A DNA stretch of 64,000 nucleotides from Sphingopyxis fribergensis (lineage in GTDB: Bacteria > Pseudomonadota > Alphaproteobacteria > Sphingomonadales > Sphingomonadaceae), in contig NZ_CP009122.1 of NCBI RefSeq assembly GCF_000803645.1, forward strand, positions 224,501-288,500. Direction: 5' to 3'. The translations under genes were made by a program, and so were the position numbers. Of the stretch, positions 4,555 to 35,381 are shown one piece after another. Under the pieces are notes generated by a model, which saw only the letters and a program-made list of their open reading frames with translations, searched no databases and was not told the origin of the DNA. Within the stretch, counting starts at the first letter, position 1, and each line of letters begins with the position of its first letter.

Positions 4555-4564
4555 GGGTCTCTCC

Positions 4565-5062
4565 TTAATGACATTTGAAGCGGTCGAACGGCTCCAGGCA
4601 GTCTTCGCACTGCCAGAGCGCCTTGCATGGCGTCGATCCGAAACGGCTGACTTCATGGGTCGCGGCGGATCCGCATCGGGGACACGCTGCTGCCTCCCTA
4701 TTGCGCAGCGAGGACATCGAAGCGCCGCGTGGCGGCGGCGCAATGCCATAAGCCTTGAGTTTTTCACGGCCCGCGTCGCTGATCCAATCGGTCGTCCATG
4801 GCGGCGAGAGTACCGTCCGGATGCCGACTTCACCGAATCCGGCGTGATCCAGAGCGTGCCGCACGGCCTGCTCGATCACAAGAGTGGCGGGACAGCCGCT
4901 ATAGGTCGGGGTGAGCAGGACAGTTGGGGGTGAGCGTTCTATAGCCCTGACGATTCCCAACTCGACCACAGAGATTGCGGGGATCTCAGGGTCGGGCACA
5001 TCGCACAGGACATCGCGCACCCGGTCCTCGAAGCTGGGCGAAGAGATGTCACCAGCGTGCAT
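4565..5062 (-). CDS. paaD: PaaD, Fe-S assembly factor for the phenylacetyl-CoA epoxidase
   Basis: PaaD (165 residues) belongs to the MIP18/DUF59 family and is thought to help mature the iron centres of the PaaABCE complex. The N-terminal DUF59 region contains DPEIPAISVVELGIVR. The C-terminal end carries a zinc-ribbon-like set of cysteines at 127, 130, 152 and 155, with further cysteines at 146 and 164. Its start overlaps the end of paaC by 14 bp, which suggests translational coupling. Confidence 0.95.
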   Translation of the reverse strand: MHAGDISSPSFEDRVRDVLCDVPDPEIPAISVVELGIVRAIERSPPTVLLTPTYSGCPATLVIEQAVRHALDHAGFGEVGIRTVLSPPWTTDWISDAGREKLKAYGIAPPPRGASMSSLRNREAAACPRCGSAATHEVSRFGSTPCKALWQCEDCLEPFDRFKCH

Positions 5063-5822
5063 CGGGAAAACTGCGTGGGATATGCTGCATCACTGCAAGC
5101 AGGTGACCGAGATGTTCGCTGTGCTTGCCCTGGCGGCCGCCGGTGACAGGCCGGTGCTGTGCAGGCAGGTCCAGCCTCGCTTCAGCAAGTGATTGCGCGA
5201 CGATGAGGTCGAAAGGCTCGCGAAGTTTGGCGCGGTCGATGCCGATGCGAGTCTCGATCATCGCTTCGTCCACCGCATCATTGACGAACAGTTCGTCGAT
5301 GAACCGCCAATTCCATTCCAGGCCATCGATCATGCGCCGACGGCTTTCCTCGGTGCCATCGCCCAAGCGGATTACCCACTCGCGCGCGAGGCCTGCATGA
5401 TATTCGGTTTCCTTGACGGCTTTCGCGGCGATTGCTGCAAGTTCGGAATCCGACGATGCGGTCAGCGCCCCGTAGAGCAGGTTCTGGAACGTCGAGAAAA
5501 AAAATTGCCGCGCCATTGTGCGGGCGAAATCGCCATTGGGTTGCTCGACCAGCAGGCAATTGAGAAAGTCGAGTTCGTCCCGGTGAAAGGCGAGGGCGTC
5601 AGCATCCCGGCCGCCATTTTCGATCTCAGCGGCATGCGCCAGCAGCAGCGTCCCCTGGCCAATCAGGTCGAGCCCAAGATTGGCAAGCGACAAATCGACT
5701 TCGACCGAGGGCGCGTGTCCGCACCATTCGGACAGGCGCTGACCCAGGATCAGAGCGTCGTCGCCCAATCCGATCAGATAGGCCACATGCGCCTCGCGGA
5801 CGATCACAGCATTGTCCATCAC
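5049..5822 (-). CDS. paaC: PaaC, structural subunit of the phenylacetyl-CoA 1,2-epoxidase
   Basis: PaaC (257 residues) is the ferritin-like partner that holds PaaA in the epoxidase and binds the CoA substrate region; it is not itself the catalytic di-iron subunit. The family hallmark NLGLDLIGQ is near residue 50, and the length matches known PaaC proteins. It starts within the paaB stop (ATGA overlap) and its end overlaps paaD, so the ABCDE genes are tightly coupled. Confidence 0.95.
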   Translation of the reverse strand: MMDNAVIVREAHVAYLIGLGDDALILGQRLSEWCGHAPSVEVDLSLANLGLDLIGQGTLLLAHAAEIENGGRDADALAFHRDELDFLNCLLVEQPNGDFARTMARQFFFSTFQNLLYGALTASSDSELAAIAAKAVKETEYHAGLAREWVIRLGDGTEESRRRMIDGLEWNWRFIDELFVNDAVDEAMIETRIGIDRAKLREPFDLIVAQSLAEARLDLPAQHRPVTGGRQGKHSEHLGHLLAVMQHIPRSFPDARW

Positions 5823-6103
5823 ATATGCCTCACGGCGTCGGGCAGGTCATAGAAGGTCGGATGCCGATAGACCTTGTCCTCGGCCGGCGCGAAAAGAGGG
5901 CCGGCTTGTCCAGGGTCGGACGCAACGATGTCGGCCGAGCGTACTGTCCAGATGCTCACCCCCTCCATGCGGCGGGTATAGGTGTCCCGAGCATGGCGAA
6001 GCGCCAGTTCGGCGTCGGGCGCGTGGACAGAGCCGACATGCTTGTGGGACAGTCCGCCGCGCGCGCGGACGAAAACCTCCCAGAGAGGCCAATCATTACT
6101 CAT
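5819..6103 (-). CDS. paaB: PaaB, small subunit of the phenylacetyl-CoA 1,2-epoxidase
   Basis: A 94-residue PaaB protein, beginning with WPLWEVFVRARGGLSHKHVGSVHAPD, the signature region of the family. PaaB bridges PaaAC heterodimers and may take part in electron delivery from PaaE. Usual length. It lies 13 bp after paaA and overlaps paaC by 4 bp. Confidence 0.95.
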   Translation of the reverse strand: MSNDWPLWEVFVRARGGLSHKHVGSVHAPDAELALRHARDTYTRRMEGVSIWTVRSADIVASDPGQAGPLFAPAEDKVYRHPTFYDLPDAVRHM

Positions 6104-6116
6104 CGTCGTGTTCCAA

Positions 6117-7100
6117 TCAGGCTGCGAGGCGCTGGCGCCGCTTCATTTCATAGGCATCGGCAGCTTCACGCACCCAGGCGCCATCTTCCCATGCCTTGCG
6201 TCGTGCCTCGATCCGCTCCCTGGCGCAGGGACCTTCACCACGAACGACGGCAAAGAACTCCTCCCATTCGATGGCGCCGAAATCATAACCGCCGCGCGCC
6301 TCGTTCCAGCGTAGGTCGGGATCCGGGATCGTAAGACCAAGCAATTCCGCTTGCGGCACGGTTGCGTCGACGAATTTCTGGCGCAACTCATCATTGGTGT
6401 CGCGCTTGATACGCCAGCGCATCGATTGTTCGGAATTGGGCGACTGGTCGTCAGGCGGACCGAACATCATCAGGGCAGGCCACCACCAGCGGTCCAGCGC
6501 ATCCTGTGCCATGCGGCGCTGCGCCGACGTGCCGGCCGCCAACGTCATCATGATTTCATATCCCTGGCGCTGGTGGAAGCTCTCCTCCTTGCACACCCGT
6601 ACCATGGCCCGTGCATAGGGGCCGTAGGAGGTCCGCTGGAGGGGCACCTGGTTCATGATGGCCGCACCGTCCACCAGCCAGCCGATCGCGCCGATGTCAG
6701 CCCAGGTCGGGGTCGGATAGTTGAAGATCGTGCTGTACTTGGCTTTGCCCGCATGTAGTGCATCGATCATCTCGGCGCGGCTCGCCCCGAGTGTCTCGGC
6801 GGCCGAATAGAGATAGAGACCGTGGCCACCTTCGTCCTGCACCTTGGCGAGGAGGATGGCTTTGCGGCGGAGGGAAGGTGCGCGGGTGATCCAGTTACCT
6901 TCAGGAAGCATGCCGACGATTTCGCTGTGGGCGTGTTGCGAGATCTGCCGGATCAGCGTCCGGCGGTAAGCTTCGGGCATCCAGTCCTTGGGCTCGATGA
7001 ATTCGTCCGCGGCGACGCGCGCCTCGAACGCCGCGACAAGATCAGCCGGCTCGACGCTGCGGACCCCAGGGTCGGCCTTTTGCAATTCGGTCGTGTACAT
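6117..7100 (-). CDS. paaA: PaaA, catalytic di-iron subunit of the phenylacetyl-CoA 1,2-epoxidase
   Basis: PaaA (327 residues) epoxidises the aromatic ring of phenylacetyl-CoA with O2, the committing step of the pathway. The di-iron ligand region [19 protein letters not shown] is near residue 125, and the second ligand helix with [11 protein letters not shown] is near 205. The ATG at 7100 is preceded by GAGGAG. It opens the paaABCDE operon; the 65-bp gap upstream holds a near-palindromic promoter/operator. Confidence 0.96.
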
Positions 7101-7130
7101 GGCTCAAAATCTCCTCGAACATGGTGATAT

Positions 7131-7159
7131 TATTAATCGACCGCTCGGTCAACTAATAA
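7131..7159 (-). promoter_or_regulatory. paaA promoter with GACCG-N2-CGGTC operator in the spacer
   Basis: The 12-bp palindrome GACCGCTCGGTC occupies 7139-7150 and sits in an AT-rich, partly symmetric surround (ATTAAT on one side, ACTAAT on the other). Read leftward toward paaA, a weak -35 box TTATTA (7159-7154) and a -10 box TTAATA (7136-7131) are 17 bases apart. The palindrome begins three bases into the spacer and ends two bases before the -10. An overlapping TTGACC/TATCAC pair (7152-7147 and 7129-7124) is an alternative reading. The styA site has the same palindrome with the same layout. Confidence 0.65.
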
Positions 7160-8856: not shown

Positions 8857-8885
8857 TTGCCAATAATAGTTCGACCGGTCATTCT
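8857..8885. promoter_or_regulatory. Candidate PaaR site between paaI and paaG
   Basis: The 8-bp perfect palindrome GACCGGTC is at 8873-8880, in the divergent region between paaI and paaG. It keeps one full half-site (GACCG) of the palindrome found before paaA and styA; the other half is degenerate. Leftward, a possible TTCGCA / TATTAT pair flanks it with a 16-base spacer; rightward, TTGCCA at 8857 could be a -35. The operator role is inferred from the two better copies. Confidence 0.45.
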
Positions 8886-8919
8886 GCGAATTAAGGGCAG
8901 CATGTCCGCCGGAGGATGC

Positions 8920-9711
8920 ATGGCATATCAAACGATAGTTTTCGAAGCGCAGGACGGCGTTGCGCGACTCACGCTGAACCGGCCCGACCGCCTCAACAGC
9001 TTCACGGTACAGATGCACGAGGAGGTTGCCGAAGCGCTCGGTCGCGTGGCCGGCGACTCATCAATCCGTGCGCTTTTGCTCACGGGTGCGGGTAGGGGGT
9101 TTTGCGCCGGGCAGGATCTGGGCGACCGTGCGGTTGCACCGGGCGCCGAGCCGGTTGACCTCGGAGACTCGGTGGAGCGCTATTATGCGCCCTTGATCCG
9201 CAGTCTTACGTCGCTGCCGATGCCGGTCATCTGTGCTGTGAACGGCGTCGCGGCGGGGGCAGGAGCCAATATCGCACTTGCCTGTGACATCGTTCTTGCC
9301 GCTCGCAGTGCGAAATTTATCCAGTCTTTCGCCAATATTGGCCTCATCCCGGATTCCGGCGGGACATGGGTGTTGCCACGTTTGATCGGACAAGCGCGAG
9401 CGCTCGGCTTAGCGCTGACAGGTGATCCCTTGCCTGCGGAACAGGCGGAAGCCTGGGGCCTCATCTGGCGCTGTGTCGATGATGACGTCCTTGCCGGTGA
9501 AGCTGCCGCTCTGGCGTCGCGTTTTGCGAACGGGCCCACTTCCGGGCTCGCCGCGACCAAGCAGGCCTTGCGGGAATCCTCATTGAAGTCACTCGACGCT
9601 GCGCTCGACAACGAACGCGATCTCATGCGCAGGCTCGGTCGAAGTGCCGACTATGCAGAGGGCGTTGCCGCCTTCTCGGCGAAACGCAAGCCAGCATTTA
9701 CGGGCCGTTGA
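8920..9711 (+). CDS. paaG: PaaG, 1,2-epoxyphenylacetyl-CoA isomerase
   Basis: A 263-residue crotonase-family protein that opens the ring epoxide to the seven-membered oxepin-CoA and later isomerises a double bond. It shows the crotonase oxyanion-hole region GAGRGFCAGQDLGDR, as in PaaG, and NGVAAGAGANIALACDI, while SGGTWVLPRLIG marks the third conserved segment. I choose ATG 8920 (MAYQTIVFEA) because GGAGG lies four bases upstream; earlier in-frame ATGs at 8902 and 8857 give poor N-termini. It is first in a rightward operon whose gaps are all under 25 bp. Confidence 0.93.
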   Translation: MAYQTIVFEAQDGVARLTLNRPDRLNSFTVQMHEEVAEALGRVAGDSSIRALLLTGAGRGFCAGQDLGDRAVAPGAEPVDLGDSVERYYAPLIRSLTSLPMPVICAVNGVAAGAGANIALACDIVLAARSAKFIQSFANIGLIPDSGGTWVLPRLIGQARALGLALTGDPLPAEQAEAWGLIWRCVDDDVLAGEAAALASRFANGPTSGLAATKQALRESSLKSLDAALDNERDLMRRLGRSADYAEGVAAFSAKRKPAFTGR

Positions 9712-9733
9712 CGGCCAAGAAGGAGTTCATCTC

Positions 9734-11764
9734 ATGGCCGTTCGTGCCGTTCAAAGTTACACCGAAGGACATTGGTACACCAGTTCGGGCGGCCGTGAGG
9801 CCGTTGCGTCGGCGGTCACCGGTGAGATCATCGCCGAGATTGGCAGTGATGGGATCGATTTCGGCGCGATGTTGCGCTTCGCACGAGCGACCGGCGGACC
9901 GGCGCTGCGCGCGATGACCTTTCACGAGCGCGCGTTGATGCTCAAGGCGCTGGCGCAAGCCGTCATGGCGCGAAAGGAGGAACTTTACGAGCTTTCCTAC
10001 CCCAGCGGTGCAACGCGTTCGGACAGTTGGATCGACATTGAGGGCGGAGCGGGAACGCTCTTCGCCTATGCATCGAAGGGGCGGCGCGAACTGCCCAACG
10101 AGCGGCTATTGATCGACGGCGACACCGAATTGCTGGGCCGTGCCGGCACCTTTGTCGGGCAGCATGTCTACACGTCGTTGCAGGGCGTCGCCGTTCACAT
10201 CAACGCTTTCAATTTTCCGATCTGGGGAATGCTCGAAAAACTCGGGCCCACCCTGCTCGCGGGCGTGCCGGCCGTCGTCAAACCCGCTCAGTCAACCGGC
10301 TACATCGCCGAGGCCGCTTTCCGGATCATGATCGAATCCGGCGTACTCCCGGCAGGTGCGCTGCAACTTGTGTCGGGCAAGACGGGAGATCTTTTCGATC
10401 ATCTGACTGCCCAGGATGTCGTGGCCTTCACCGGCTCTGCTCGCACAGCCATGCTGTTGCAAAACCATCCGGTCATTGCGCGCGAATCGGTTCGGTTCAC
10501 GGCGGAACGCGACTCGCTCAATGCGTCAATTCTCGGGCCGGATGCGACGCCCGACACGCCCGAGTTCGATCTGTTCGTCAAGGAAGTGGCGAAGGAGATG
10601 ACGGTGAAGGCCGGGCAGAAATGCACTGCCATTCGCCGCGCGCTCGTGCCTGCCAACCTGATCAACGCCGCGCAGGAGGCGCTGTCGGCCCGTCTCGCCA
10701 AGATCAAGGTCGGTGACCCGCGCGACGAAAGCGTGCGCATGGGAGCACTTGCCAGTCGCAGCCAGTTGTTGGACGTCCGTTCAAGGATCACCGAGCTCGC
10801 AAAGGTAGCGCCGATCGTCTTCGGAAGCCCGGACGATGTTCCTCTTACGGGCGAAGGCCTAAGCGGAGGCGCTTTCATGTCGCCCATCCTGCTGCGGACC
10901 GACACGCCATGGAAGGCGACGGCAATCCACGAGGTCGAGGCCTTCGGTCCGGTATCGACGCTAATGCCCTATGACGGCATCGATGATGCAATTGCGCTCG
11001 CGAACCGCGGCATGGGGTCACTCGCGCTATCGGTCGTGACACACGACCCGGACGTTGCGCGTGACGTGATCCTCACAGGCGGCGCCTGGCATGGTCGCAT
11101 CCTCTTCCTCGACCGCGACTGCGCCAAGGAGTCGACGGGTCATGGCTCGCCACTGCCGGTCCTCATTCATGGCGGGCCGGGTCGCGCTGGCGGCGGCGAG
11201 GAAATGGGAGGTATCCGCGGCGTGAAACATTATATGCAGCGCACCGCGCTGCAGGGTGGTCCAGCATTACTGTCAAAGGCCGTGCATCAGCAGTTGCCGG
11301 GCGCCCCGACTGCCGAAGGCGACCGCCATCCCTTCCGACTGACATTCGGGGAAATTGAACCCGGCTACGGCATCCGTACCGCGGCAAGGACCGTTACACT
11401 CGAAGACATTGAGCATTTCGCGCACTTCACCGGCGACACATTCTATGCGCATATGGACGAAGAAGCGGCGTCAAAGAGTCCGATCTTCGGCGGCCGCGTA
11501 GCCCATGGCTATCTGATCCTGTCGTTCGCTGCCGGCCTGTTCGTCGATCCCGCGCCCGGACCAGTGCTCGCCAATTACGGTCTTGAAGGACTGCGCTTCG
11601 TCAAGCCTTTGAAGCCAGGAGACAGCATGAAGGCGGTCCTGACCGCTAAATCGAAGTCCCTCAAGACTCCGGAAATGGGCGAAGTTCGCTGGCATGTCGA
11701 TGTCAGCAACCAGGACGATGAGCTTGTTGCCACCTATGATCTGCTGACGATGAACGCGGTCTGA
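9734..11764 (+). CDS. paaZ: PaaZ, bifunctional oxepin-CoA hydrolase / 3-oxo-5,6-dehydrosuberyl-CoA semialdehyde dehydrogenase
   Basis: PaaZ (676 residues) cleaves the oxepin ring and oxidises the resulting aldehyde. Residues 1 to about 520 form the aldehyde dehydrogenase domain, with the catalytic cysteine in KAGQKCTAIRR. The last 140 residues form a MaoC-like (R)-hydratase domain with the TGDTFYAHMDEEAA catalytic loop and GRVAHGYLILS. Both domains have the expected active-site residues. The ATG at 9734 has AGGAG eight bases upstream; the frame is open further back, but that stretch overlaps the end of paaG. It lies 22 bp after paaG. Confidence 0.96.
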   Translation: MAVRAVQSYTEGHWYTSSGGREAVASAVTGEIIAEIGSDGIDFGAMLRFARATGGPALRAMTFHERALMLKALAQAVMARKEELYELSYPSGATRSDSWIDIEGGAGTLFAYASKGRRELPNERLLIDGDTELLGRAGTFVGQHVYTSLQGVAVHINAFNFPIWGMLEKLGPTLLAGVPAVVKPAQSTGYIAEAAFRIMIESGVLPAGALQLVSGKTGDLFDHLTAQDVVAFTGSARTAMLLQNHPVIARESVRFTAERDSLNASILGPDATPDTPEFDLFVKEVAKEMTVKAGQKCTAIRRALVPANLINAAQEALSARLAKIKVGDPRDESVRMGALASRSQLLDVRSRITELAKVAPIVFGSPDDVPLTGEGLSGGAFMSPILLRTDTPWKATAIHEVEAFGPVSTLMPYDGIDDAIALANRGMGSLALSVVTHDPDVARDVILTGGAWHGRILFLDRDCAKESTGHGSPLPVLIHGGPGRAGGGEEMGGIRGVKHYMQRTALQGGPALLSKAVHQQLPGAPTAEGDRHPFRLTFGEIEPGYGIRTAARTVTLEDIEHFAHFTGDTFYAHMDEEAASKSPIFGGRVAHGYLILSFAAGLFVDPAPGPVLANYGLEGLRFVKPLKPGDSMKAVLTAKSKSLKTPEMGEVRWHVDVSNQDDELVATYDLLTMNAV

Positions 11765-11787
11765 GAGCCGGGAAAGAGGAGAGGAAA

Positions 11788-13083
11788 ATGGCTACCGCGC
11801 TTGCACTTGAACCCATTGAGACAGCTTCGGTCGACGAACTTCGCGCGCTTCAGCTCGAGCGGCTTCGTTGGTCCATACGTCACGCCTATGAAGGCAATCC
11901 CCGCTATCGTGCGAAGTTCGATGCGGCGGGCGTACACCCGGATGACCTTCGAACGCTTGCGGACCTGGCCCGCTTTCCGTTTACGACGAAGGCCGATCTG
12001 CGAGACGCCTATCCGTTCGGCTTCTTCGCCGTCCCGCAAGAGAAACTTTCGCGCATCCACGCATCGTCGGGAACTACCGGAAGGCCCACCGTCGTCGGCT
12101 ATACCAGGAAGGATATCGAAACCTGGTCAGGTGTGGTCGCACGATCCATCCACGCGGCGGGCGGGCGCCCGGGAATGAAGGTCCATATCGCCTATGGCTA
12201 TGGCCTCTTCACCGGCGGCCTTGGCGCCCATTATGGTGCAGAGGCGCTCGGATGCGCGGTCATTCCGATGTCTGGGGGGCAAACCGAAAAGCAGGTCCAA
12301 TTGATCGGCGACTTCCGGCCCGAACTGATCATGGTCACGCCCAGCTATATGCTGTCGATACTCGACGAATTCCGGCGACAGGGCATCGATCCGGCCACCA
12401 CCTCGCTCACGACAGGCATCTTCGGCGCAGAACCGTGGACAGAAGCCATGCGCGCCGAGATCGAACAGGCATTCAACATCAGCGCCGTCGACATCTACGG
12501 CCTCTCGGAAATCATGGGCCCCGGTGTGGCGCAGGAATGCGCTGAATCCAAGGACGGGCCGACCATCTGGGAAGATCATTTCTACCCTGAGATCATCGAT
12601 CCTGTGACCGGCGAGGTCGTGCCCGAGGGCGAGGAGGGCGAGCTTGTGTTCACCTCGCTCACCAAGGAAGCAATGCCTGTCATTCGCTACCGTACCCGCG
12701 ATCTGACCAGACTACTGCCGGGTACGTCACGGACCATGCGTCGCATGGCAAAGATCACTGGCCGCTCGGACGACATGATGATCATTCGTGGGGTGAATGT
12801 CTTTCCGACCCAGATTGAGGAACATATCCTCGGCTGCACTGCGCTCGCGCCGCATTATCTGATCGAGATCACGCGCCCGAGCCGGATGGATCAGGTGAAA
12901 CTGCTTGTCGAAGGGCGGGCGGGCATCGGCGACAACGAATGCGTGCGTGATGGCAAGCGGCTCGCCGAACGGATCAAGACCATGATCGGCATCACGGTCG
13001 CGGTCGATATCCAACCGGCAGGTTCGCTCGTGCGATCCGGTGGCAAGGCTACACGGGTGCTCGACTTGCGGCCCAAGGCGTAA
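11788..13083 (+). CDS. paaK: PaaK, phenylacetate-CoA ligase
   Basis: PaaK (431 residues) activates phenylacetate with ATP and CoA, the entry step of the pathway, and also makes the likely effector of the PaaR-like regulator. The AMP-binding P-loop is SSGTTGRP at 93-100, IYGLSEIMGPG marks the acid-binding motif, and RSDDMMIIRGVNVFPTQIE is the hinge to the C-terminal domain. Length and motifs are standard. It starts 23 bp after paaZ behind a strong purine-rich ribosome-binding site. Confidence 0.96.
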   Translation: MATALALEPIETASVDELRALQLERLRWSIRHAYEGNPRYRAKFDAAGVHPDDLRTLADLARFPFTTKADLRDAYPFGFFAVPQEKLSRIHASSGTTGRPTVVGYTRKDIETWSGVVARSIHAAGGRPGMKVHIAYGYGLFTGGLGAHYGAEALGCAVIPMSGGQTEKQVQLIGDFRPELIMVTPSYMLSILDEFRRQGIDPATTSLTTGIFGAEPWTEAMRAEIEQAFNISAVDIYGLSEIMGPGVAQECAESKDGPTIWEDHFYPEIIDPVTGEVVPEGEEGELVFTSLTKEAMPVIRYRTRDLTRLLPGTSRTMRRMAKITGRSDDMMIIRGVNVFPTQIEEHILGCTALAPHYLIEITRPSRMDQVKLLVEGRAGIGDNECVRDGKRLAERIKTMIGITVAVDIQPAGSLVRSGGKATRVLDLRPKA

Positions 13084-13105
13084 TTTCCCCAGGAGAATCC
13101 GGACC

Positions 13106-13411
13106 ATGCATAAGCTGATGGCGCTCTATAAAATTCCGGCCGATGAGACGGCTTTCTTCGCCCACTATAATTCCGTCCATCTGCCGTTGGTCGAGAAGAT
13201 ACCGGGGCTGTTGAAGACCGAAGTCACGCGGATTGACCGCACATTGATGGGCGAGGAGGGCAATTTTCTCCTGGCTGAGCTTTATTTCGCTGATACGGAC
13301 AGCTTCAAAACCGCCATGAAAAGCGATGAAAATGTCGCAGTTGGCGCCGACGCGGTGGCCTTTGCGCCTGGCATTTTGACGGTCATGACCGGTCACACCC
13401 TGGGCGATTGA
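13106..13411 (+). CDS. EthD-domain protein in the paa operon
   Basis: A 101-residue protein of the EthD family (ferredoxin-like alpha/beta barrel, usually dimeric). It opens with MHKLMALYKIPADETAFFAHYNSVHLPLVEKIPGL, close to the family signature of a hydrophobic strand followed by H-x3-P. EthD proteins are found in several oxidative degradation clusters without a settled biochemical role. AGGAG lies ten bases upstream of the ATG. It sits between paaK and the paaF/paaH fusion, with 22-bp and 7-bp gaps, so it is clearly co-transcribed with them. It is not part of the textbook paa set; a scavenging or chaperone role would be a guess. Confidence 0.8.
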   Translation: MHKLMALYKIPADETAFFAHYNSVHLPLVEKIPGLLKTEVTRIDRTLMGEEGNFLLAELYFADTDSFKTAMKSDENVAVGADAVAFAPGILTVMTGHTLGD

Positions 13412-13418
13412 ACGGACC

Positions 13419-15494
13419 ATGCCCATCCATCAGGAAATCGTCGGCAGGATCCTTCTGCTCAGAGTCGACAATCCCCCGGTCAATGCCTTGTCCAGGGTCG
13501 AGCGCCGCGGCCTGATCGATGGGATTGTGCGCGGGGCCGATGAGGATATCGATGCAGTCGTCATCATCGGTACCGGCGCGAGCTTCATCGCAGGCGCGGA
13601 CATCCGGGAGTTCGGCCAGCCGCCCGAGCCGCCACATCTTCCCGAAGTCGTCGAGGCGATCGAGGCTTCTACAAAGCCGGTCGTTGCGGCGATCGCCGGT
13701 CAGGCGCTCGGAGGCGGGCTGGAAGTCGCCCTAGCATGCCACTATCGGCTGGCAAGCGCAGACGCCAGGCTCGGACTTCCTGAAACGACCCTGGGTCTCA
13801 TTCCTGGCGCGGGCGGGACGCAACGCTTGCCCCGTCTTGTCGATCCCCTTGTCGCCGCAGACATGGTTGCCACCGGTAAGCCGCGCAATGCGACAAGCGC
13901 GCTGCAGATCGGGCTGATCGACTGGATCGCCGAAAGGCCGCTCGAGATCGAAGCTGTGGAGCGGGCTCGAGATGTCGCCAGGCAGTCGCTCGACGGGCGA
14001 CGTCTGTCTGAAGGGAATGTCGCGACATCGACCGCCACAATTGAAGCGCTCGCCCACCTGAAGGCGGACACGGTCAGAAAATCGCGGGGCGCACTCGCTC
14101 CCGGCATCGCCATAGACCTCATCCGTTTGGCGCTACAAAGTCCCTATGATGCCGGTGTGGCCGAGGAACGGGCCCGTTTTCTTGAATTACGATCGAGCCC
14201 GCAAGCCGCCGCCCTGCGGCACATCTTCTTTGCGGAACGGGAAGCCGCGAAAGGACAGGGCGGGGCCGCGCGCAGTGTTGCACGCGTCGGCGTCATAGGC
14301 GCGGGCACGATGGGCGCGGGGATCGCGATGAGCGTGGCGGACGCAGGCTTTCCGGTCACCCTCATCGAACAAAATGAAGCGGCGCTTGCCGCCGGGCTCG
14401 ATCGTATCGCGCGAGCCTATGGCGATGGGGTCGCGCGAAAAAGACTGACCAGCGAGGTAGCGGCCGAGCGCCGTGCCAATATCACCGGCGCAACCGATTA
14501 TGAGGCGTTGGCGCAAGCGGATCTCATTATCGAGGCCGCCTTCGAAACCATGGAGGTCAAGGATTCGATCTTCAGGCGTCTTGACGCCGTCGCGCGGCCC
14601 GAGGCGATCCTGGCGACGAACACCTCCTATCTCGACATCGACGCAATCGCGGCCGTAACCGACCGACCCGGCCAGGTGGTGGGGCTCCATTATTTCAGCC
14701 CGGCCAATGTCATGAAGCTCCTGGAGATCGTGCGCGGGCGCAAAACCGATCCGGCGGTGCTGGCGACCGCGCTCGCTTTCGCCCGCCGAACCGGCAAGAT
14801 ACCGGTCGTCGCTGGCGTTTGCCACGGTTTCATCGGCAACCGGATGCTGCGTGCCTACAACCGGGAGGCGGGGCTATTGTTGCTCGAAGGCGCGACACCC
14901 TCGCGGGTCGACAAGGCTTTGACGGACTTCGGCATGGCCATGGGACCCTTTGCCGTGGCGGACCTCTCCGGGATCGACATCGGTCACAAGGGACGGATGG
15001 TCATGGAACCGGGATCCTATGAGCCTGCTGCTTTCCGCGTCCACGACACGCTGGTTTCGCGTGGATTTCACGGTCGCAAGACTGGCGCTGGTTTTTATCT
15101 CTATTGTGACGGGAAGGTCGAGGGCGACAACCCCGAAGTGGCAGACATCGTGGCGGCGGCGCGCGAGAATTTTGGCGTCGAAGCTCGAAACATCGATACC
15201 CACGAAATCGTGGAGCGGTGCATCTTTGCGGCTGCCGCCGAAGGACTGCAGATCGTGAAAGAAGGGATCGCGGCGCGGCCAGGCGACGTCGATGTGGTTT
15301 TCGTGAACGGCTATGGCTTCCCTCGCCACCGCGGAGGACCGATCTTCCATCTGAACCAGGCCGGCGATGTCGGTGTCGCGGCGCTTCGTGGCTATGCGCA
15401 AGGCCCCTTCGGCCGCTGGTGGCCATCTGCCGATCCGCATGACAGCAACGTCGAGATGCACCCTCGAGGCCAATCAACACAAGATGCCGCTTAA
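13419..15494 (+). CDS. Fused enoyl-CoA hydratase / 3-hydroxyacyl-CoA dehydrogenase (PaaF + PaaH functions)
   Basis: A 691-residue multifunctional beta-oxidation enzyme. Residues 1-190 are a crotonase domain (GADIREFG, GQALGGGLEVALACHYR, PETTLGLIPGAGGTQRLPR). From about 290 there is a 3-hydroxyacyl-CoA dehydrogenase NAD-binding domain with GAGTMGAG, followed by HYFSPANVMKLLEIV and two C-terminal HCDH repeats (GFIGNRML and GYGFPRHRGGPI). Its place in the paa operon, and the lack of separate paaF and paaH genes in the window, suggest it hydrates 2,3-dehydroadipyl-CoA and oxidises 3-hydroxyadipyl-CoA. It could also act in general fatty-acid oxidation. Starts 7 bp after the EthD gene. Confidence 0.9.
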   Translation: MPIHQEIVGRILLLRVDNPPVNALSRVERRGLIDGIVRGADEDIDAVVIIGTGASFIAGADIREFGQPPEPPHLPEVVEAIEASTKPVVAAIAGQALGGGLEVALACHYRLASADARLGLPETTLGLIPGAGGTQRLPRLVDPLVAADMVATGKPRNATSALQIGLIDWIAERPLEIEAVERARDVARQSLDGRRLSEGNVATSTATIEALAHLKADTVRKSRGALAPGIAIDLIRLALQSPYDAGVAEERARFLELRSSPQAAALRHIFFAEREAAKGQGGAARSVARVGVIGAGTMGAGIAMSVADAGFPVTLIEQNEAALAAGLDRIARAYGDGVARKRLTSEVAAERRANITGATDYEALAQADLIIEAAFETMEVKDSIFRRLDAVARPEAILATNTSYLDIDAIAAVTDRPGQVVGLHYFSPANVMKLLEIVRGRKTDPAVLATALAFARRTGKIPVVAGVCHGFIGNRMLRAYNREAGLLLLEGATPSRVDKALTDFGMAMGPFAVADLSGIDIGHKGRMVMEPGSYEPAAFRVHDTLVSRGFHGRKTGAGFYLYCDGKVEGDNPEVADIVAAARENFGVEARNIDTHEIVERCIFAAAAEGLQIVKEGIAARPGDVDVVFVNGYGFPRHRGGPIFHLNQAGDVGVAALRGYAQGPFGRWWPSADPHDSNVEMHPRGQSTQDAA

Positions 15495-15505
15495 GGAGAG
15501 ACGAC

Positions 15506-17008
15506 ATGGCAACGGCGCAATCCTACGTAACCCCGCTCAGCGCGGTCTCCACTTTCATCGGGCATGATCACGGGCTCTTCATCGATGGCGACTGGCGCGC
15601 TGCGAAGGGTACCGAACGACTTGACGTCTTCGATCCCTCGACCGGAGAACCCATCGCGAGCGTCGCCAATGCGTCGCCCGACGATGTCGATCATGCCGTG
15701 CGCGCTGCCCACAAGGCGTTCGAGAGCGGCGTCTGGAGCGGCATTGCCCCCGCCGAGAGGGAACGCCTGCTCCTCAAGTTTGCCGATCTGGTCGAAGCCA
15801 ATGCGGAGGAACTGGCGCAGATCGAAACGCTCAACCAGGGCAAGTCGATCAACATCTCGCGTTTCGTCGATGTCGGTGGCGCACCGGCTTACATGCGTTA
15901 CGTCGCTGGCCTCACGACGAAGATCACCGGGGAAACGTTCGACGTCTCGATCGGCGCGATTCCAGGTGCACGTTTCACGGCCTCGACGCGCCGCGAACCT
16001 ATCGGCGTCGTGGGCGCGATCGCACCGTGGAACTTCCCGATGATGATCGGGCTGTGGAAAATCATGCCGGCGCTTGCAGCTGGCTGCACCGTCGTCCTTA
16101 AGCCATCGGAAGTCACGCCGCTTACGAGCTTGCGGCTTGCGAGTCTGGCGAAGGAGGCGGGGCTTCCCGCGGGTGTTCTCAACGTGATCACCGGTGACGG
16201 CAAGGCAGGCAAAGCGCTGGTCGATCATCCGCTCGTGGCGAAGATCACGTTCACCGGTTCGACCGCAACCGGCAAGGCGATCGCGCGATCTGCATCGGAC
16301 CGGCTTTTGCGCACCTCGCTCGAACTTGGCGGCAAGAACCCCGCCATCTTCCTTGCCGACGCGCCCATCGAACAGGCGGTCCAGGGTGCAATCCTCGGCG
16401 GCTTTTTCAACAACGGTCAGGTCTGCGCGGCCTCCTCGCGGCTCTATATCGCGCGCGCCATCTATGATCCCTTCATCAAGGCTCTTGCCCACGCGGTCGA
16501 TGGTATGACCATGGGCCCAGGGCTGGACACGGCCGCGCAGATCAATCCCGTGGTTTCATTACAGCACCGCGCGAAGATTCTGGACCATATAGCGCGCGCG
16601 CGTCAGGATGGCGCCCAGATTGTCGCGGGAGGTGAAAGTCCCGACCGCGCTGGCTACTATGTCCGGCCGACCGTTGTAGTCGGCGCGGGAGCGCAGCTTG
16701 CCATATCCCGGCAGGAGGTCTTCGGGCCGCTGGTCACCGTCACCCCCTTCGACGATGAGGACGAAGCGATCAACCTTGCCAATGATACCGAAATGGGCCT
16801 GACGGCCTCGTTGTGGACTAACGATCTCAAGAAAACGATGGACCTCGTACCCCGGATCAAGGCCGGCACGGTCTGGGTCAATTGCCACAACTTGATCGAT
16901 CCCAATATGCCGTTTGGAGGCTACAAGGAATCCGGGATCGGCCGCGACTTCGGCATCCATTCGCTGGACGGCTATAGCGAGGTAAAGTCCGTGTGCATCG
17001 CGCACTAA
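15506..17008 (+). CDS. styD: Phenylacetaldehyde dehydrogenase (StyD/FeaB type)
   Basis: A 500-residue NAD+-dependent aldehyde dehydrogenase that would oxidise phenylacetaldehyde, the product of StyC, to phenylacetate, the substrate of PaaK. Key residues are the base Glu near 273 (LELGGKNP) and catalytic Cys near 307 (GQVCAASSR); APWNFPMMIG marks the cofactor region. The family is shared with betaine and other aldehyde dehydrogenases, but N-terminal features and position support StyD. It is the last gene of the paaG operon, 11 bp after the paaF/paaH fusion, and so is not in the styABC operon. Three bases separate its stop from the stop of the convergent LysR gene. Confidence 0.9.
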   Translation: MATAQSYVTPLSAVSTFIGHDHGLFIDGDWRAAKGTERLDVFDPSTGEPIASVANASPDDVDHAVRAAHKAFESGVWSGIAPAERERLLLKFADLVEANAEELAQIETLNQGKSINISRFVDVGGAPAYMRYVAGLTTKITGETFDVSIGAIPGARFTASTRREPIGVVGAIAPWNFPMMIGLWKIMPALAAGCTVVLKPSEVTPLTSLRLASLAKEAGLPAGVLNVITGDGKAGKALVDHPLVAKITFTGSTATGKAIARSASDRLLRTSLELGGKNPAIFLADAPIEQAVQGAILGGFFNNGQVCAASSRLYIARAIYDPFIKALAHAVDGMTMGPGLDTAAQINPVVSLQHRAKILDHIARARQDGAQIVAGGESPDRAGYYVRPTVVVGAGAQLAISRQEVFGPLVTVTPFDDEDEAINLANDTEMGLTASLWTNDLKKTMDLVPRIKAGTVWVNCHNLIDPNMPFGGYKESGIGRDFGIHSLDGYSEVKSVCIAH

Positions 17009-17011
17009 GCA

Positions 17012-17980
17012 TCAGCGGTCGGCTTGACCGCCGTTGGTCTCGGTCCCCCTAGCTACGGACGGAAAGGATCGACGGACCGGAGCGCGGTCGCGGGGCTGGC
17101 TCGCGACCGCGGTGGCAATGTGGTCGATGAAACTGCGTGCACGTCGCGACAGGAAGCGGGTCTGCGGATAGATCACCGTTACCGTTATCGGGGGCAGATA
17201 ATAATCCGGCAGGAGACGCCTGATCTTCTTGTCGCGGACGTCATCGTCGATCAGCCAGGATGGTACAATGGCTATCCCGTCGCCCGCCACCGCAGCCTGA
17301 TAGGCGGCCTCGTCACTGTTGGTACACAGACGACCCGATAGTTGCACGACCTGTCGGCCATTTTCCGAATCGAACTCCAGACGGCCGCTTGCGTTTCGGG
17401 TGGAACGCACGATCTCATGGGCCTCCAAATCGATCGCGCTCTCAGGCGCGCCGTGGGCTGCGAGATAGGCCGGAGAGGCCACGACCGCCCATTCAAATAC
17501 GCGAATGGTTCGGGTAATCAAGGATCCTTCCGTCGGCGCGGCCGTGGTAATAGCAAGCTCCAAGCCTTCCGCGACAATGTCCTTAACATTGTCGCTCAGC
17601 ACCGCATCGAGGCTGATCAAAGGATGGGCAGCCATGAACGAGCGCACCAGAGGGAAGAGGAGGGTGCGGCCGAGCGATTCGGGCAACGCCAGCCGCAAAA
17701 GTCCGGCGGCCTCGGGTTGCTGGCCTTTGACGAGAGCGTGGGCGGTCTCAACGGAATCAAGCATATGTTGCACATGTTCGTAGATTCGGGAGGCCTCCGG
17801 TGTCGGACTGATACGCCGTGTGGTTCTCGTAAACAGTTGAACACCAAGGCTATTTTCCAGGCCTGCAACATGTTTGCTGACCGTGGACTGGGAGATTCCG
17901 AGCTGTCGTCCGGCTGCGGAGAAACTTCCCAATTCCATCAGACGGGCGAACGCGGCGTAAGCTTCGATGCGATCAGTCAT
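17012..17980 (-). CDS. LysR-family regulator between styD and styABC
   Basis: A 322-residue LysR-type regulator. The N-terminal winged helix ([39 protein letters not shown]) belongs to the CrgA-like branch, often autorepressors or redox/aldehyde sensors. The effector domain follows from about residue 90. It is transcribed divergently from styA across 120 bp and convergently with styD, so it is the second candidate regulator of the styrene genes next to the TetR protein. A GCGT-N5-ACGC inverted repeat (18013-18025) just beside the styA operator could be its site, though this is weak. Confidence 0.88.
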
Positions 17981-18018
17981 TTATTCTCTTTCGCATATAT
18001 CATAGTGGATTTGCGTCA

Positions 18019-18047
18019 TTTACGCCTGACCGCTCGGTCGATAAATA
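18019..18047 (+). promoter_or_regulatory. styA promoter with GACCG-N2-CGGTC operator in the spacer
   Basis: A -35 box TTTACG (18019-18024) and a -10 box TAAATA (18042-18047) are separated by 17 bases. The spacer contains the perfect palindrome-type element GACCGCTCGGTC at 18028-18039, identical to the element before paaA and placed at the same offset from both boxes. A protein bound here would block RNA polymerase, which fits a TetR repressor. The promoter lies about 55 bp upstream of the styA start. Confidence 0.7.
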
Positions 18048-18100: not shown

Positions 18101-19369
18101 ATGAGCAAAAAGATCGGAATTATCGGCGCGGGCACCGCGGGCCTTAAACTGGGCTTGCACCTTCTCAAGAACGGTGTCGAGGTTAAGCTGTTCACCGATC
18201 GTCGCCCGGAAGAATATGCCGGCATGCGATTGCTCAACACGGTGGCGCACCATCATGTGACCGTAGAGCGCGAAGACAAGCTGGGCGTGAACCACTGGCC
18301 GGATGTCGGCTACAAGGGGCATTATTATTACATCGGCACCCCCGAGCCGCTTCAATTCTATGGCGACCTCGTCGCACCGAGTCGTGCGGTCGATTACCGC
18401 ATCTATCAACCCCAGCTCATGCAGGACTTCATCGATCGTGGCGGCGACATCGAATATGGGCAGATCGCACACGAAGACCTCGATGCGATTGCCGACGAAT
18501 TCGATCTCCTCGTGGTTTGCACCGGCAAGGGTCCGTTTGGACAAATGTTCACCCACGAGCCTGCCTACTCGCCGTTCGATCGGCCGCAGCGCGCTCTCTG
18601 CGTCGGCCTGTTCAAAGGCATCCGCGAGCCCGAAACCCGTGCGCTGACGATGTATTTCTCGCCCGGCCACGGCGAGATGATCGAGATCCCGACACTCTCC
18701 TTCAACGGCATGGTCAACGCGCTCGTGATCGAGAACCATATCGGTGGTGATCTCGAAATTCTCGCCAAGACCAAATATGATGACGACCCCAAGGCCTTCA
18801 TCGCGCTTCTCCTCGAGAAGCTACAGAAGCACTATCCAACCTGCTACGAGCGCATTGACCTCGAGGAGTTCGATCTGGCCAATGGCCCGCTCGACATTCT
18901 GCAGGGTGGCGTTACGCCGACTGTCCGCAACAGCTATGCCAAGCTGCCGAACGGCAAGATCGCCGTGGCGCTGGGCGATGTGCAGGCCGTCGTCGACCCG
19001 GTCCTGGGGCAGGGGGCAAACATGGCCTCTTACGCGGCGATCATACTGGGCGAAGAGATTGTCGCCAATGACGTGCTCGACGAGCGCTTCATGGAAAAGG
19101 TCGACGCCCGCCGTCGCGACCGCGTGCTGAGCGCCACGCGCTGGACCAACTACATGCTTTCGTCGCTCGCGACCCTCGATCCCAATCTTCTCCAGTTCAT
19201 TGGGGCTGTCAGTCAGAATCCGAAACTGGCCGACGAGTTCACGGAGAACTTCAATTTCCCGGAGAAGCAGTGGGACTGTTTTTCGAGCCCGGAGCGCGTG
19301 CAGGCGTGGATCCAGGCCCGGCTCGGCACGCCCGCCAACGATGCCGAAGAACTTGTCGCCGCAGAATGA
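18101..19369 (+). CDS. styA: StyA, FAD-dependent styrene monooxygenase (epoxidase)
   Basis: StyA (422 residues) converts styrene to (S)-styrene oxide using O2 and FADH2 supplied by StyB. It begins with the dinucleotide fold [18 protein letters not shown] (GAGTAG at 9-14), and later shows the StyA-type [23 protein letters not shown] segment. Length is close to known StyA proteins (about 415). The ATG at 18101 is preceded by AGGAAAGG at a good distance; an ATG three codons earlier is too close to that site. The frame is open far upstream, but there it only mirrors the LysR gene. It is the first gene of styA-styB-styC-ompW. Confidence 0.96.
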
Positions 19370-19377
19370 GTGATGGG

Positions 19378-19415
19378 TTGCCCCCCTTTGGGGGGGCAAT
19401 CTCACCGAAGTGAGA
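19378..19415 (+). promoter_or_regulatory. Two adjacent hairpins in the styA-styB gap, the second covering the styB ribosome-binding site
   Basis: TTGCCCCCC (19378-19386) pairs with GGGGGGCAA (19391-19399), a nine-pair GC-rich stem with a four-base loop. It is followed at once by TCTCAC-CGAA-GTGAGA (19400-19415), a six-pair stem closed by a CGAA tetraloop whose 3' arm includes the GAGAGG of the styB Shine-Dalgarno. No U-run follows, so this looks like an RNA-stability or translation element, not a terminator. Confidence 0.7.
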
Positions 19416-19425
19416 GGATAAATCG

Positions 19426-19923
19426 ATGGTTCCCGACCAAATGTTTAAGCAGGCGCTGTCCCGGTTGGCTGCGGGCGTGAGCATCGTGTCGACCGCGCAC
19501 AACGGTGAGCGTCGCGGCGTCACTGCCACCGCCGTCTGTTCCGTCTCCGCTGCGCCGCCGACCATCCTGGTCTGCGTCAACACCGCGACCGGTACCTGCC
19601 AGATGATCAAGGAAGCGGGTCATTTCGCCGTCAACCTCCTCGCCGAGCACCATCAGCCTGTTGCTGAAGTCTTCGCCGGGAGGGGGGGGCTGCAGGGCGA
19701 TGAGCGCTTCGGCCACGGCGACTGGATCCGAGGGGAGGAGCGGGGCTTGCCGATCCTGTCGAGCGCCCTCGCAGCCCTGGAATGTCGCGTCGATCAGGCC
19801 GTCGAAGCCGGCACGCATATCGTCTTCTTCGGTATCATCGAAAGTGCCTATTTCGACGAGAATCCACCGCTCATCTTTCATGGCGGCAGGTTCCACGTAC
19901 TGCCGATGGCGAACGCGGCCTGA
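19426..19923 (+). CDS. styB: StyB, NADH:FAD oxidoreductase of styrene monooxygenase
   Basis: StyB (165 residues) reduces FAD with NADH and supplies FADH2 to StyA. It has the flavin-reductase fold typical of short-chain reductase partners: LAAGVSIVSTAHNGERRGVTATAVCSVSAAPPTILVCVN at the N-terminus and FAVNLLAEHHQPVAEVF in the middle. Length matches StyB (about 170). It follows styA after 56 bp containing two hairpins, and precedes styC by 58 bp. Confidence 0.94.
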   Translation: MVPDQMFKQALSRLAAGVSIVSTAHNGERRGVTATAVCSVSAAPPTILVCVNTATGTCQMIKEAGHFAVNLLAEHHQPVAEVFAGRGGLQGDERFGHGDWIRGEERGLPILSSALAALECRVDQAVEAGTHIVFFGIIESAYFDENPPLIFHGGRFHVLPMANAA

Positions 19924-19930
19924 TCTAATC

Positions 19931-19980
19931 GCATAACAATGCATAACAATAATGAGGAGAGATGTAATGAGGAGAGATGT
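19931..19980 (+). repeat. Back-to-back perfect tandem duplications in the styC leader
   Basis: GCATAACAAT occurs twice in tandem (19931-19940, 19941-19950), followed immediately by AATGAGGAGAGATGT twice in tandem (19951-19965, 19966-19980). The second duplicated unit contains the GAGGAGAG Shine-Dalgarno, so the leader has two ribosome-binding sites and two extra in-frame ATGs (19952, 19967) before the assigned start at 19982. Confidence 0.95.
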
Positions 19981-19981
19981 T

Positions 19982-20527
19982 ATGGCAACTCTGGCGGCAC
20001 AGCCCGCGGCTGGTGGGGTGGACGCTGCGCCCGACGTAGAGCGCGAACGCGCGGCACTGCGCAAGATGATGATCGGCAATGGCGTATTGATGATCTTCGC
20101 AGCCCTGGTCGGAGGCCTCGGCCTCTGGATGTATCTCATCGGCGGTTTCATTCCGATCTTCCCCGGCTTTCATTGGGATTTCCAGCTTCCCGGCACTGCT
20201 GAAGGTTGGGCGCGCGCGCACACTGGACCCGTGCTGAACGGTCTTATGGTGATCACCGTCGCCTTTTGCCTTCCCCTGCTATCGTTCACGCCTAAATGGG
20301 CGCGAATCTGGGGCCTCATCGTCGTACTCGACGGCTGGTCGAACACCGGCTTCTACTTCTTTGGCAACTTCGCACCCAATCGCGGGCTCAACTTCACGGC
20401 GAACCGTTTTGGCGAGGCGAACATCTTCAGTTTCTTGGCTCTGGCGCCGGCCTATCTCTTCGGTGTTCTCGTCATGATCGCACTGTTTGCAATCGGGATA
20501 CAGGCGTTGCGGGACGCGCGCCACTGA
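19982..20527 (+). CDS. styC: StyC, styrene oxide isomerase (membrane)
   Basis: StyC isomerises styrene oxide to phenylacetaldehyde by a Meinwald rearrangement at a haem b acting as Lewis acid. From the assigned start it has 181 residues and four hydrophobic helices. Residues I recall as functional in the Pseudomonas enzyme (haem ligand H58, N64, D95, Y103) fall here at H80, N86, D117 and Y125, all shifted by 22. The motifs GWARAHTGPVLNG and LDGWSNTGFYFFGNFAPNRG carry them. I use ATG 19982 because the N-terminus then lacks the repeat-encoded residues; starts at 19952 or 19967, each with the same Shine-Dalgarno, would add MRRDV repeats. Confidence 0.93.
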   Translation: MATLAAQPAAGGVDAAPDVERERAALRKMMIGNGVLMIFAALVGGLGLWMYLIGGFIPIFPGFHWDFQLPGTAEGWARAHTGPVLNGLMVITVAFCLPLLSFTPKWARIWGLIVVLDGWSNTGFYFFGNFAPNRGLNFTANRFGEANIFSFLALAPAYLFGVLVMIALFAIGIQALRDARH

Positions 20528-27915: not shown

Positions 27916-29277
27916 TCAATGCAGCTTGAGGCGCGGCCGTATGACCTGATTGACCTTGCCGACAGCCATCAACGCGAGACCACGCAGCCAGCCATGGACT
28001 GCCAGAACATGCATACGATAAAGCGACGTGTAGACGAATCTCGCCAATCGACCCTCGACCGCGAGGCGTCCGCCTATCAAATTGCCCATCAAGCTACCGA
28101 CGGTCGAAAAGCGGCTGAGCGATACAAGCGATCCATGGTCGCGATAGACAAAATCGAGGAGGGGCTTGCCGGCGGTGATCCGCAAAAGATTTCGGTAGAC
28201 CATCGATGCCATTTGATGTGCGGCCTGCGCGCGCGGTGGTATCGGCCGCTCGGTGCCTGGAAGGAGGCAGGAACAACAATCCCCCAACGCAAAAATCCTT
28301 TCGTCCTCTGTCGTCTGAAGGGTGGGACGCACAAGAAGCTGAGAAGCGCGATTGACCTCGAGACCATCAAGATGGCTCAACAGGGCATGGCCCTTTACGC
28401 CGGCCGCCCATACCATGAGATCCGCCTCGATCCGTTCGCCCTCTTTGGTAATGATGGCGTGCTTTTCGGCACTCGTGACGGGCACGCCCGTGAGAACCCG
28501 GACACCTAGAGCTTCAAGTTCCGCCTGCGCGGCCTTGGCGAGACGCTCTGGCAGAGCCGGAAGTATGCGCGGCCCCGCCTCGACCAACGTGACCTTAAGC
28601 CTGCTCTCGTCGAAAACCTCGAGGCCGTAAAGGCGAAGCGCCGATGCGGCATTGTACAACTCGGCACTCAGCTCCACTCCGGTAGCGCCCCCGCCAATGA
28701 TCACCACTCGCACATATTCATTGACCGTGCAGTCAGCACTCATTCGTCGCGATACTCTGAGGCAATGATCGAGCAGCTTCGACCGGAAGCGGTCTGCCTG
28801 GGCGCGTTCATCAAGAAAGATGCAGTTTTCGCGAACACCCGGCGTACCGAAGTCGTTGCTCACTGAGCCGATGGCAAGCACGAGATAATCATAGCGGATC
28901 GCATGGCGGCCCACGATCTCGCTGCCATCCTCATCATGCACCGGAGCAATGATGACCTGGCGTTTCGTCCGGTTGATCGTCTCGAGCGTACCGTAATAGA
29001 AGCGGTAGCCCCAGCGATGGCAGTGACCGCGATATCCCACCTCATCCAGATTGGCATCAAGGGAGCCGGCCGCGACCTCGTGCAACAGCGGTTTCCAGAT
29101 ATGCGTGTGGTTGCGATCGATGAGGATTATGTCATGATTCTTTCGCCCAAAATGCGCACCAAGTTTTCTTACCAACTCGAGCCCGCCCGCACCGCCGCCC
29201 ACCACGACGATCTGGGTTTTCTTCGATTTGGCCACCTGTTGTTTAGATTTGGGACGTGAGCTGGTATCGATCGTCAT
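27916..29277 (-). CDS. ndh: Type II NADH:quinone oxidoreductase (NDH-2)
   Basis: A 453-residue single-subunit, non-proton-pumping NADH dehydrogenase attached to the inner membrane face. The FAD-binding fold is IVVVGGGAGGLELVRKL (about 23-39), the NADH-binding fold is VVIIGGGATGVELSAEL near 190, and IFALGDCCS near 322 is the second FAD contact. The C-terminal amphipathic region (RMHVLAVHGWLRGLALMAVGKVNQVIRPRLKL) fits membrane binding. Downstream of the ALDH and ADH genes on the same strand, it could reoxidise the NADH they make, although 244 bp separates it from the ALDH. Confidence 0.93.
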   Translation of the reverse strand: MTIDTSSRPKSKQQVAKSKKTQIVVVGGGAGGLELVRKLGAHFGRKNHDIILIDRNHTHIWKPLLHEVAAGSLDANLDEVGYRGHCHRWGYRFYYGTLETINRTKRQVIIAPVHDEDGSEIVGRHAIRYDYLVLAIGSVSNDFGTPGVRENCIFLDERAQADRFRSKLLDHCLRVSRRMSADCTVNEYVRVVIIGGGATGVELSAELYNAASALRLYGLEVFDESRLKVTLVEAGPRILPALPERLAKAAQAELEALGVRVLTGVPVTSAEKHAIITKEGERIEADLMVWAAGVKGHALLSHLDGLEVNRASQLLVRPTLQTTEDERIFALGDCCSCLLPGTERPIPPRAQAAHQMASMVYRNLLRITAGKPLLDFVYRDHGSLVSLSRFSTVGSLMGNLIGGRLAVEGRLARFVYTSLYRMHVLAVHGWLRGLALMAVGKVNQVIRPRLKLH

Positions 29278-35317: not shown

Positions 35318-35381
35318 TCCCAACAACAACGAACAATGTGAAGGCCATTGTGCTACCGCTCTCCAAGACGCAATGTTTCTC

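Follow-up and report, generated by a model that had tools for sequence, protein, structure and literature searches.

The DNA analysed here, a 64-kb window on contig C1 (4,993,584 bases) of the two-contig, 5,202,172-base genome of Sphingopyxis fribergensis, carries the phenylacetate (paa) genes next to the styrene (sty) genes (Table 1). StyA and StyC score above their NCBIfam cut-offs, StyB has a flavin reductase domain (Pfam), and the best match of StyD, NF045735, lies below cut-off (656 of 850 bits; NCBIfam). The names paaB to paaE follow gene order and the usual make-up of the paa family, and presumably apply. In the FadJ-like paaFH gene, enoyl-CoA hydratase and 3-hydroxyacyl-CoA dehydrogenase are fused, and several relatives have a separate paaH-like match. 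A gap of 335 bases precedes paaFH, and the genes from paaG to styD may form one transcript. An OmpW gene follows styC. This order agrees with what the cited part of a review says of the S. fribergensis Kp5.2 cluster, in which an aldehyde dehydrogenase gene lies upstream of styABC beside phenylacetate genes and a LysR gene is present (PMC5874493); styD appears as feaB in the pages cited of PMC7910268.

Positions 1-21976 of the window are shared with Sphingobium sp. AP50 (L151, L053, L188, and L190) at 97.8 to 99.7% nucleotide identity, and beyond that point only short pieces match. The whole sty-paa block has probably moved recently between genera, and AP50 was dropped as independent support for being nearly identical to the window there. 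Two further TetR genes (33867-34514 and 34712-35329), which have an AraC gene and a gene for a polyprenyl synthetase nearby, are unlike paaR.

Table 1. Genes, predicted core promoters, and candidate regulatory sites in the window
Feature	Position	Strand	Basis or remark
paaR, TetR-type repressor gene	2825-3412	-	Last gene after paaE; Pfam
paaABCDE	3481-7100	-	NCBIfam (PaaA); tblastn map against relatives
paaE	about 4560 down to 3481	-	
paaD	4565-5062	-	
paaC	5049-5822	-	
paaB	5819-6103	-	
paaA	6117-7100	-	
Predicted paaA core promoter	7124-7152	-	-35 TTGACC 7152-7147, N17, -10 TATCAC 7129-7124
Putative PaaR operator core, paaA promoter	7139-7150	-	Exact GACCGCTCGGTC; top R1 match
paaI and thiolase gene paaJ		-	Same side as paaA-E
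Degenerate PaaR site, divergent paaI/paaG promoter	Site 8866-8891, promoter 8857-8891	+	Intergenic alignment
paaG, paaZ, paaK, styD	Stretch 8902-17008; paaZ 9644-11764, paaK 11788-13083, styD 15506-17008	+	Pfam, NCBIfam
paaFH, FadJ-like	13419-15494	+	Pfam, NCBIfam
LysR-type regulator gene	17012-17980	-	Divergent to styA; Pfam
Degenerate LysR-type box ATTCTCTTTCGCAT	17983-17996	+	Where relatives carry ATTCC-N4/5-GGAAT
Probable styA core promoter	18019-18047	+	TTTACG 18019-18024, N17, TAAATA 18042-18047
Putative PaaR operator, styA promoter	18027-18046, core 18028-18039	+	Exact GACCGCTCGGTC; third R1 match
styABC	18101-20527	+	
styA	18101-19369	+	
styB	19426-19923	+	
styC	19952-20527	+	

Putative operator sites and predicted core promoters

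A shared 12-mer had been pointed out in the paaA and styA promoters by the initial annotation, and it is indeed exact at both sites and found nowhere else in the window, with GACCGNNCGGTCGATNAAT reading toward the gene in each case. The bare palindrome, GACCGNNCGGTC, is not rare, occurring 40 times in the genome versus 24 for a reversed control; of the other 38 copies, a crude GC3 rule puts 27 in an open frame and leaves 11 unplaced. At up to two mismatches the window holds 18 copies, a count that shuffling also yields (mean, 12, with 18 reached in 8 of 100 shuffles). The bare palindrome was dropped as a test of a site on these two counts, and a two-mismatch copy at 28716-28734 was discarded, as it falls within ORF 27916-29277. 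In the genome-wide motif search proposed with the initial annotation, the flanked form, GACCGNNCGGTCGRTNAAT, a pattern designed with both window sites already known, has two perfect matches in 5.2 Mb, the paaA and styA sites, and none at one mismatch.

An independent sequence-only model, R1, was trained on 14 paaA operators from other genomes; these were all but one of the 15 loci with the site then available besides the window and AP50, the Donghicola site (upstream of paaJ) being omitted. With 150 of 4822 first-look candidates scored in the genome, the top score goes to the paaA site (23.2 bits), the next to its other strand, and the third to the styA site (14.3 bits; E = 0.26), followed by five weaker matches, the top two of which lie within ORFs. 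The styA site is the best R1 match outside paaA and, taken alone, is without genome-wide significance, its E value falling to 0.0032 when the search is limited to the window. Two positions considered as extra PaaR targets, C2:46858 and C1:4159061, are both within ORFs and were ruled out.

Intergenic alignment points to a third, degenerate site in the divergent paaI/paaG promoter, with a PWM score of 14.4 bits that only 1 of 1000 shuffles equalled. This site reads GACCGGTCATTC, and its right half overlaps the -10, the same compromise being seen in relatives. A 4-bp deletion was considered here and abandoned, as the alignment gave a degenerate right half over the -10. Before paaFH, the 140 bases at either end of the gap contain no PaaR site.

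Core promoters were compared among the loci carrying the site, 23 with the window included. Five were omitted: L151, which nearly duplicates the window, L178, which nearly duplicates L177, and L154, L172, and L173, where the operon begins with a different gene. All 18 remaining paaA promoters contain TTGA(C/T)C-N17-TA, in which the operator's left half makes the -35; the rows were aligned on the operator, so that GACC is given and the informative letters are TT and TA. The average match per six letters is 4.9 + 3.5 for this pair versus 1.4 + 2.3 for the paaA hexamers of the initial annotation (TTATTA/TTAATA in the window), which we reject on the strength of 18 of 18 promoters. Its 17-base-spacer pair at styA fared better: TTTACG-N17-TAAATA is joint best there, weak at 7/12, and conserved in SC_3 and YR768 and not in Donghicola. 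As the styA operator sits within this spacer and the paaA operator supplies its own -35, the operator does not occupy an identical position in the two promoters, as had been proposed. At paaI/paaG, predicted as TTGCCA-N17-CATTCT, the degenerate site covers spacer and -10. A consensus scan called no promoter at the paaA or styA site. All three sites lie within the predicted core promoters, and their placement differs.

In two loci, L179 (about 10862-10905) and L153 (about 12476-12519), the paaA operator is inside a palindrome of ~40 bases extending as far as the -10 on each strand. It resembles a two-way promoter under one operator and in L179 lies between divergent paaA and paaG.

PaaR and the distribution of its putative sites

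The TetR gene that had been placed, as PaaR-like, at the end of the paa operon is confirmed there, its product containing TetR_N and TetR_C_24 domains (PF00440 and PF17932) above cut-off. Assignment of this protein to the PaaR type is supported by these domains, by the paa neighbourhood, and by an operator of the ACCGNNCGGTCGGT type in the predicted paa core promoters, comparable to the published operator. The genome contains only one PaaR relative at E <= 1e-10. An S-K-(S/A)-L-x-Y-H-Y segment of the helix-turn-helix is kept in 10 aligned PaaR homologues, and the nearest solved structures, 3ccy and 3vpr, were both deposited without the PaaR name.

To relate regulator and site, we surveyed genomes with PaaA. 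The family sample of 149 genomes has 15, our own included; among the other 14, the site (at most one mismatch in the 12-mer) precedes paaA in 12, all with a PaaR homologue at 44 to 59% identity, and the two without the site have no PaaR homologue at E <= 1e-10. In 10 of the 14 family clusters the retrieved sequence includes the homologue, and in G085 and G066 it is on another contig. Within the genus, PaaA occurs in 5 of 80 genomes, and the four besides our own carry the site and PaaR at 46 to 57%. Genomes with styA behave likewise, AP50, SC_3, YR768, and Donghicola having the site and a TetR protein at 99, 46, 51, and 31%, respectively; in G322 and G418 the site precedes paaZ, and their TetR matches, elsewhere in the genome, are weak at 27 and 37%. 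In total, site and PaaR homologue are found together in 22 of 24 other PaaA genomes (19 clear at >=44%, and the weak three being Donghicola, G418, and G322) and neither is found in two. These counts ignore kinship: the two genomes with neither belong to one genus (g77), as do G322 and G418 (g137), and L177 seems almost the same as L178. In six control genomes that lack PaaA, any TetR match stays at or below 30%, where there is one at all. Because site and PaaR homologues co-occur across PaaA genomes, PaaR is the probable binder of the site.

With a threshold of E <= 1e-60, the five PaaA genomes among the 80 of the genus, our own included, imply that the phenylacetate pathway is sporadic there.

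The site also resembles a characterized operator. In Burkholderia cenocepacia, whose PaaR is likewise a TetR protein encoded near paaABCDE with its operator in the paa core promoter, the excerpts cited report that ACCGACCGGTCGGTT lies between the -10 and -35 and is required for repression (PMC2770484) and that PaaR comes off it in the presence of the inducer "compound II" (PMC9493321), which we take to be phenylacetyl-CoA, as PMC4424350 names that compound for PaaR. In the same register, 13 of 15 letters agree at paaA and 11 of 15 at styA by hand count. Whereas the Burkholderia authors concluded, in the portions cited, that the repeat is specific to paa clusters (PMC2770484, PMC9493321), it is also present here at an upper-pathway promoter. 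According to the passages cited for Thermus thermophilus, the TetR repressors PaaR and PfmR use palindromes of the same build (CNAACGNNCGTTNG; TACCGACCGNTNGGTN), but the half-sites of its PaaR differ from those in the window and styrene genes are not involved (PMC6651687, PMC7022988).

Does the styA site persist in relatives? The operator starts 73 bases before the styA start codon in the window, 69 in SC_3 (one mismatch), 52 in YR768 (exact), and 49 in Donghicola (one mismatch). In an operator-anchored alignment of the window and two independent Sphingobium clusters, SC_3 and YR768, the latter two with StyA proteins 80 to 83% identical, 29 of 37 columns are identical within a block picked after the alignment was viewed, versus 17 of 62 outside it (Fisher P = 1e-6). 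The styA site shares its right-hand flank with the paaA sites. R1 recovers the styA site in Donghicola (16.0 bits; E = 0.0038) and YR768 (12.3 bits; E = 0.058), and it misses the one in SC_3 at default filters, giving it 10.1 bits once the filters are switched off. Four styA genomes were added from a class sample of 385 genomes (G322, G418, G494, and G156), none with the 12-mer within one mismatch before styA, and the site at that level is present at five of nine alphaproteobacterial loci, one of them AP50, nearly the window itself.

A PWM from the same 14 operators was compared with 1000 dinucleotide shuffles of each styA promoter, leaving aside L058, where the sequence ends at the gene start. 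Its score is matched by 3 shuffles for the window, 2 for AP50, 4 for SC_3, 5 for YR768, and 0 for Donghicola, where it reaches 29.2 bits. The counts are 5 for G322, 3 for G418, and 10 for G494, with the best match on the opposite strand in all three, and as many as 158 for G156 and 475 to 913 for Nevskia L057 and Nocardioides L059 and L060. Judged by sequence, sphingomonads and Donghicola show a clear link between styA and the operator, three other Alphaproteobacteria a marginal one, and the remaining loci examined none. As the flanked site is unique to two promoters, PaaR co-occurs with the site, the site is like the Burkholderia operator, and the styA copy is kept in relatives, styA very probably belongs to the PaaR regulon.

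Proposed control of styA by PaaR and a LysR-type protein

A LysR gene lies divergent to styA in nine of nine alphaproteobacterial loci and in Nevskia L057, and was not found beside styA in Nocardioides L059 and L060. Between the two genes, ATTCC-N4/5-GGAAT occurs with zero or one mismatch in eight of nine loci tested (the window, L152, L153, L154, L172 to L175, and L057), the window being the exception with three mismatches (P = 0.66). This probable LysR box adjoins the LysR start in eight of nine styA loci. For the Kp5.2 cluster, the section cited of the review names a LysR protein and a histidine kinase as supposed regulators (PMC5874493); a Pfam scan of 30 window ORFs revealed no histidine kinase. 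According to the same section, phenylacetic acid did not act as an important inducer of sty genes in seven strains, whose genera include Sphingopyxis (PMC5874493). Because of that report, a LysR step has to be added to any control by PaaR, and the LysR protein appears the likelier primary, substrate-specific activator of styA.

We consider it likely that PaaR acts at paaA, paaI/paaG, and styA and that at styA its gate is superimposed on LysR activation. PaaR, whose gene follows paaE, would be a TetR-type repressor with the repeated palindrome as its operator. As long as phenylacetyl-CoA is lacking, PaaR would sit on GACCGNNCGGTCGRT in the core promoters of paaABCDE, paaI/paaG, and styABC and block RNA polymerase; styD, as the end of the presumed operon starting at paaG, would come under the paaI/paaG promoter. 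PaaK would make phenylacetyl-CoA, and PaaR would then be released. At styA this repression would be set over the divergently encoded LysR-type activator, which probably senses styrene or an early intermediate, so that styABC would be fully on only with substrate present and lower-pathway product flowing. Such gating would limit build-up of styrene oxide and phenylacetaldehyde. The model predicts that phenylacetate alone would give little sty induction and that loss of paaK would reduce induction by styrene. The sequences themselves show the sites, how far they are conserved, and that they co-occur with PaaR; the effector, the direction of control, PaaR binding, and the LysR role are presumed.

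The strongest competitor, which we nonetheless hold to be unlikely, has PaaR bind at styA with little consequence, trimming the basal level while LysR, sensing styrene or styrene oxide, alone sets sty expression. The presence of the LysR gene at all nine alphaproteobacterial styA loci versus five for the PaaR site (at most one mismatch), together with the reported unimportance of phenylacetic acid (PMC5874493, part cited), speaks for it, but in three diverged clusters no part of the styA promoter is as well conserved as the operator block. The opposite extreme is the plain loop of the initial annotation, in which styA is hard-wired to a phenylacetyl-CoA repressor, PaaR is sole controller, and the end product suffices to induce its own formation. 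The operator common to styA and paaA and the PaaR-type TetR protein bear out the wiring; control by PaaR alone does not agree with the LysR gene divergent to styA, nor simple end-product induction with the review's section on phenylacetic acid (PMC5874493), and we regard this loop as very unlikely.

Recognition of the styA site by another TetR protein would fit the report, in the excerpt cited, that PfmR and SbtR of Thermus use similar palindromes, which counts against specificity (PMC7022988), and the window does encode two further TetR proteins; yet in a comparison of the window's TetR genes these two are unlike PaaR and outside the AP50-shared block, the genome has the one PaaR relative, and the styA site has the paaA-type right flank, making this highly improbable. 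Least probable of all is a chance or vestigial palindrome: the abundance of bare copies in the genome and the E value of 0.26 leave room for it, but the site is kept in SC_3, YR768, and Donghicola, and no shuffle reaches the Donghicola score.

The joint model, a PaaR gate over LysR activation, can be set beside the systems known from Pseudomonas. StySR, the two-component system, and the arrangement proposed for the window would be alike in substrate-specific control of styABCD; however, the review section cited reports that the Sphingopyxis sty cluster yielded neither styS nor styR (PMC5874493), and here a LysR gene adjoins styA. The contrast with Pseudomonas drawn by the initial annotation breaks down at another point, as phenylacetyl-CoA control of styA is already known there: in strain Y2, PaaX represses PstyA without phenylacetyl-CoA (del Peso-Santos 2006, as told in the part cited of PMC2442086), and a role in avoiding toxic intermediates was proposed by the PaaX authors (PMC2442086). 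The likeness is that a repressor of the phenylacetyl-CoA pathway acts on the styA promoter too, with relief by phenylacetyl-CoA, as is predicted here. Y2 PaaX, however, is of the GntR family, whereas here there is an unrelated TetR-type PaaR, another operator, and LysR instead of StySR. A search of the library for styrene, PaaR, and styA together found no paper, and neither section 5 of PMC5874493 nor the pages cited of PMC7910268 mention a TetR protein.

We lean, by a little, toward the reading that styA came under phenylacetyl-CoA gating on two or more occasions through repressors unrelated to each other, Pseudomonas using PaaX and the sphingomonads and Donghicola using PaaR, the latter over LysR as an AND-type switch (substrate and a running lower pathway) and not an end-product loop. 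The circuit is concrete and testable, with one repressor, three promoters, and one activator. The promoters for the start and finish of styrene breakdown carry the same probable repressor site, suggesting that the two halves are tied together, and, if true, this would be convergent evolution of product-gated entry to a pathway with toxic intermediates.
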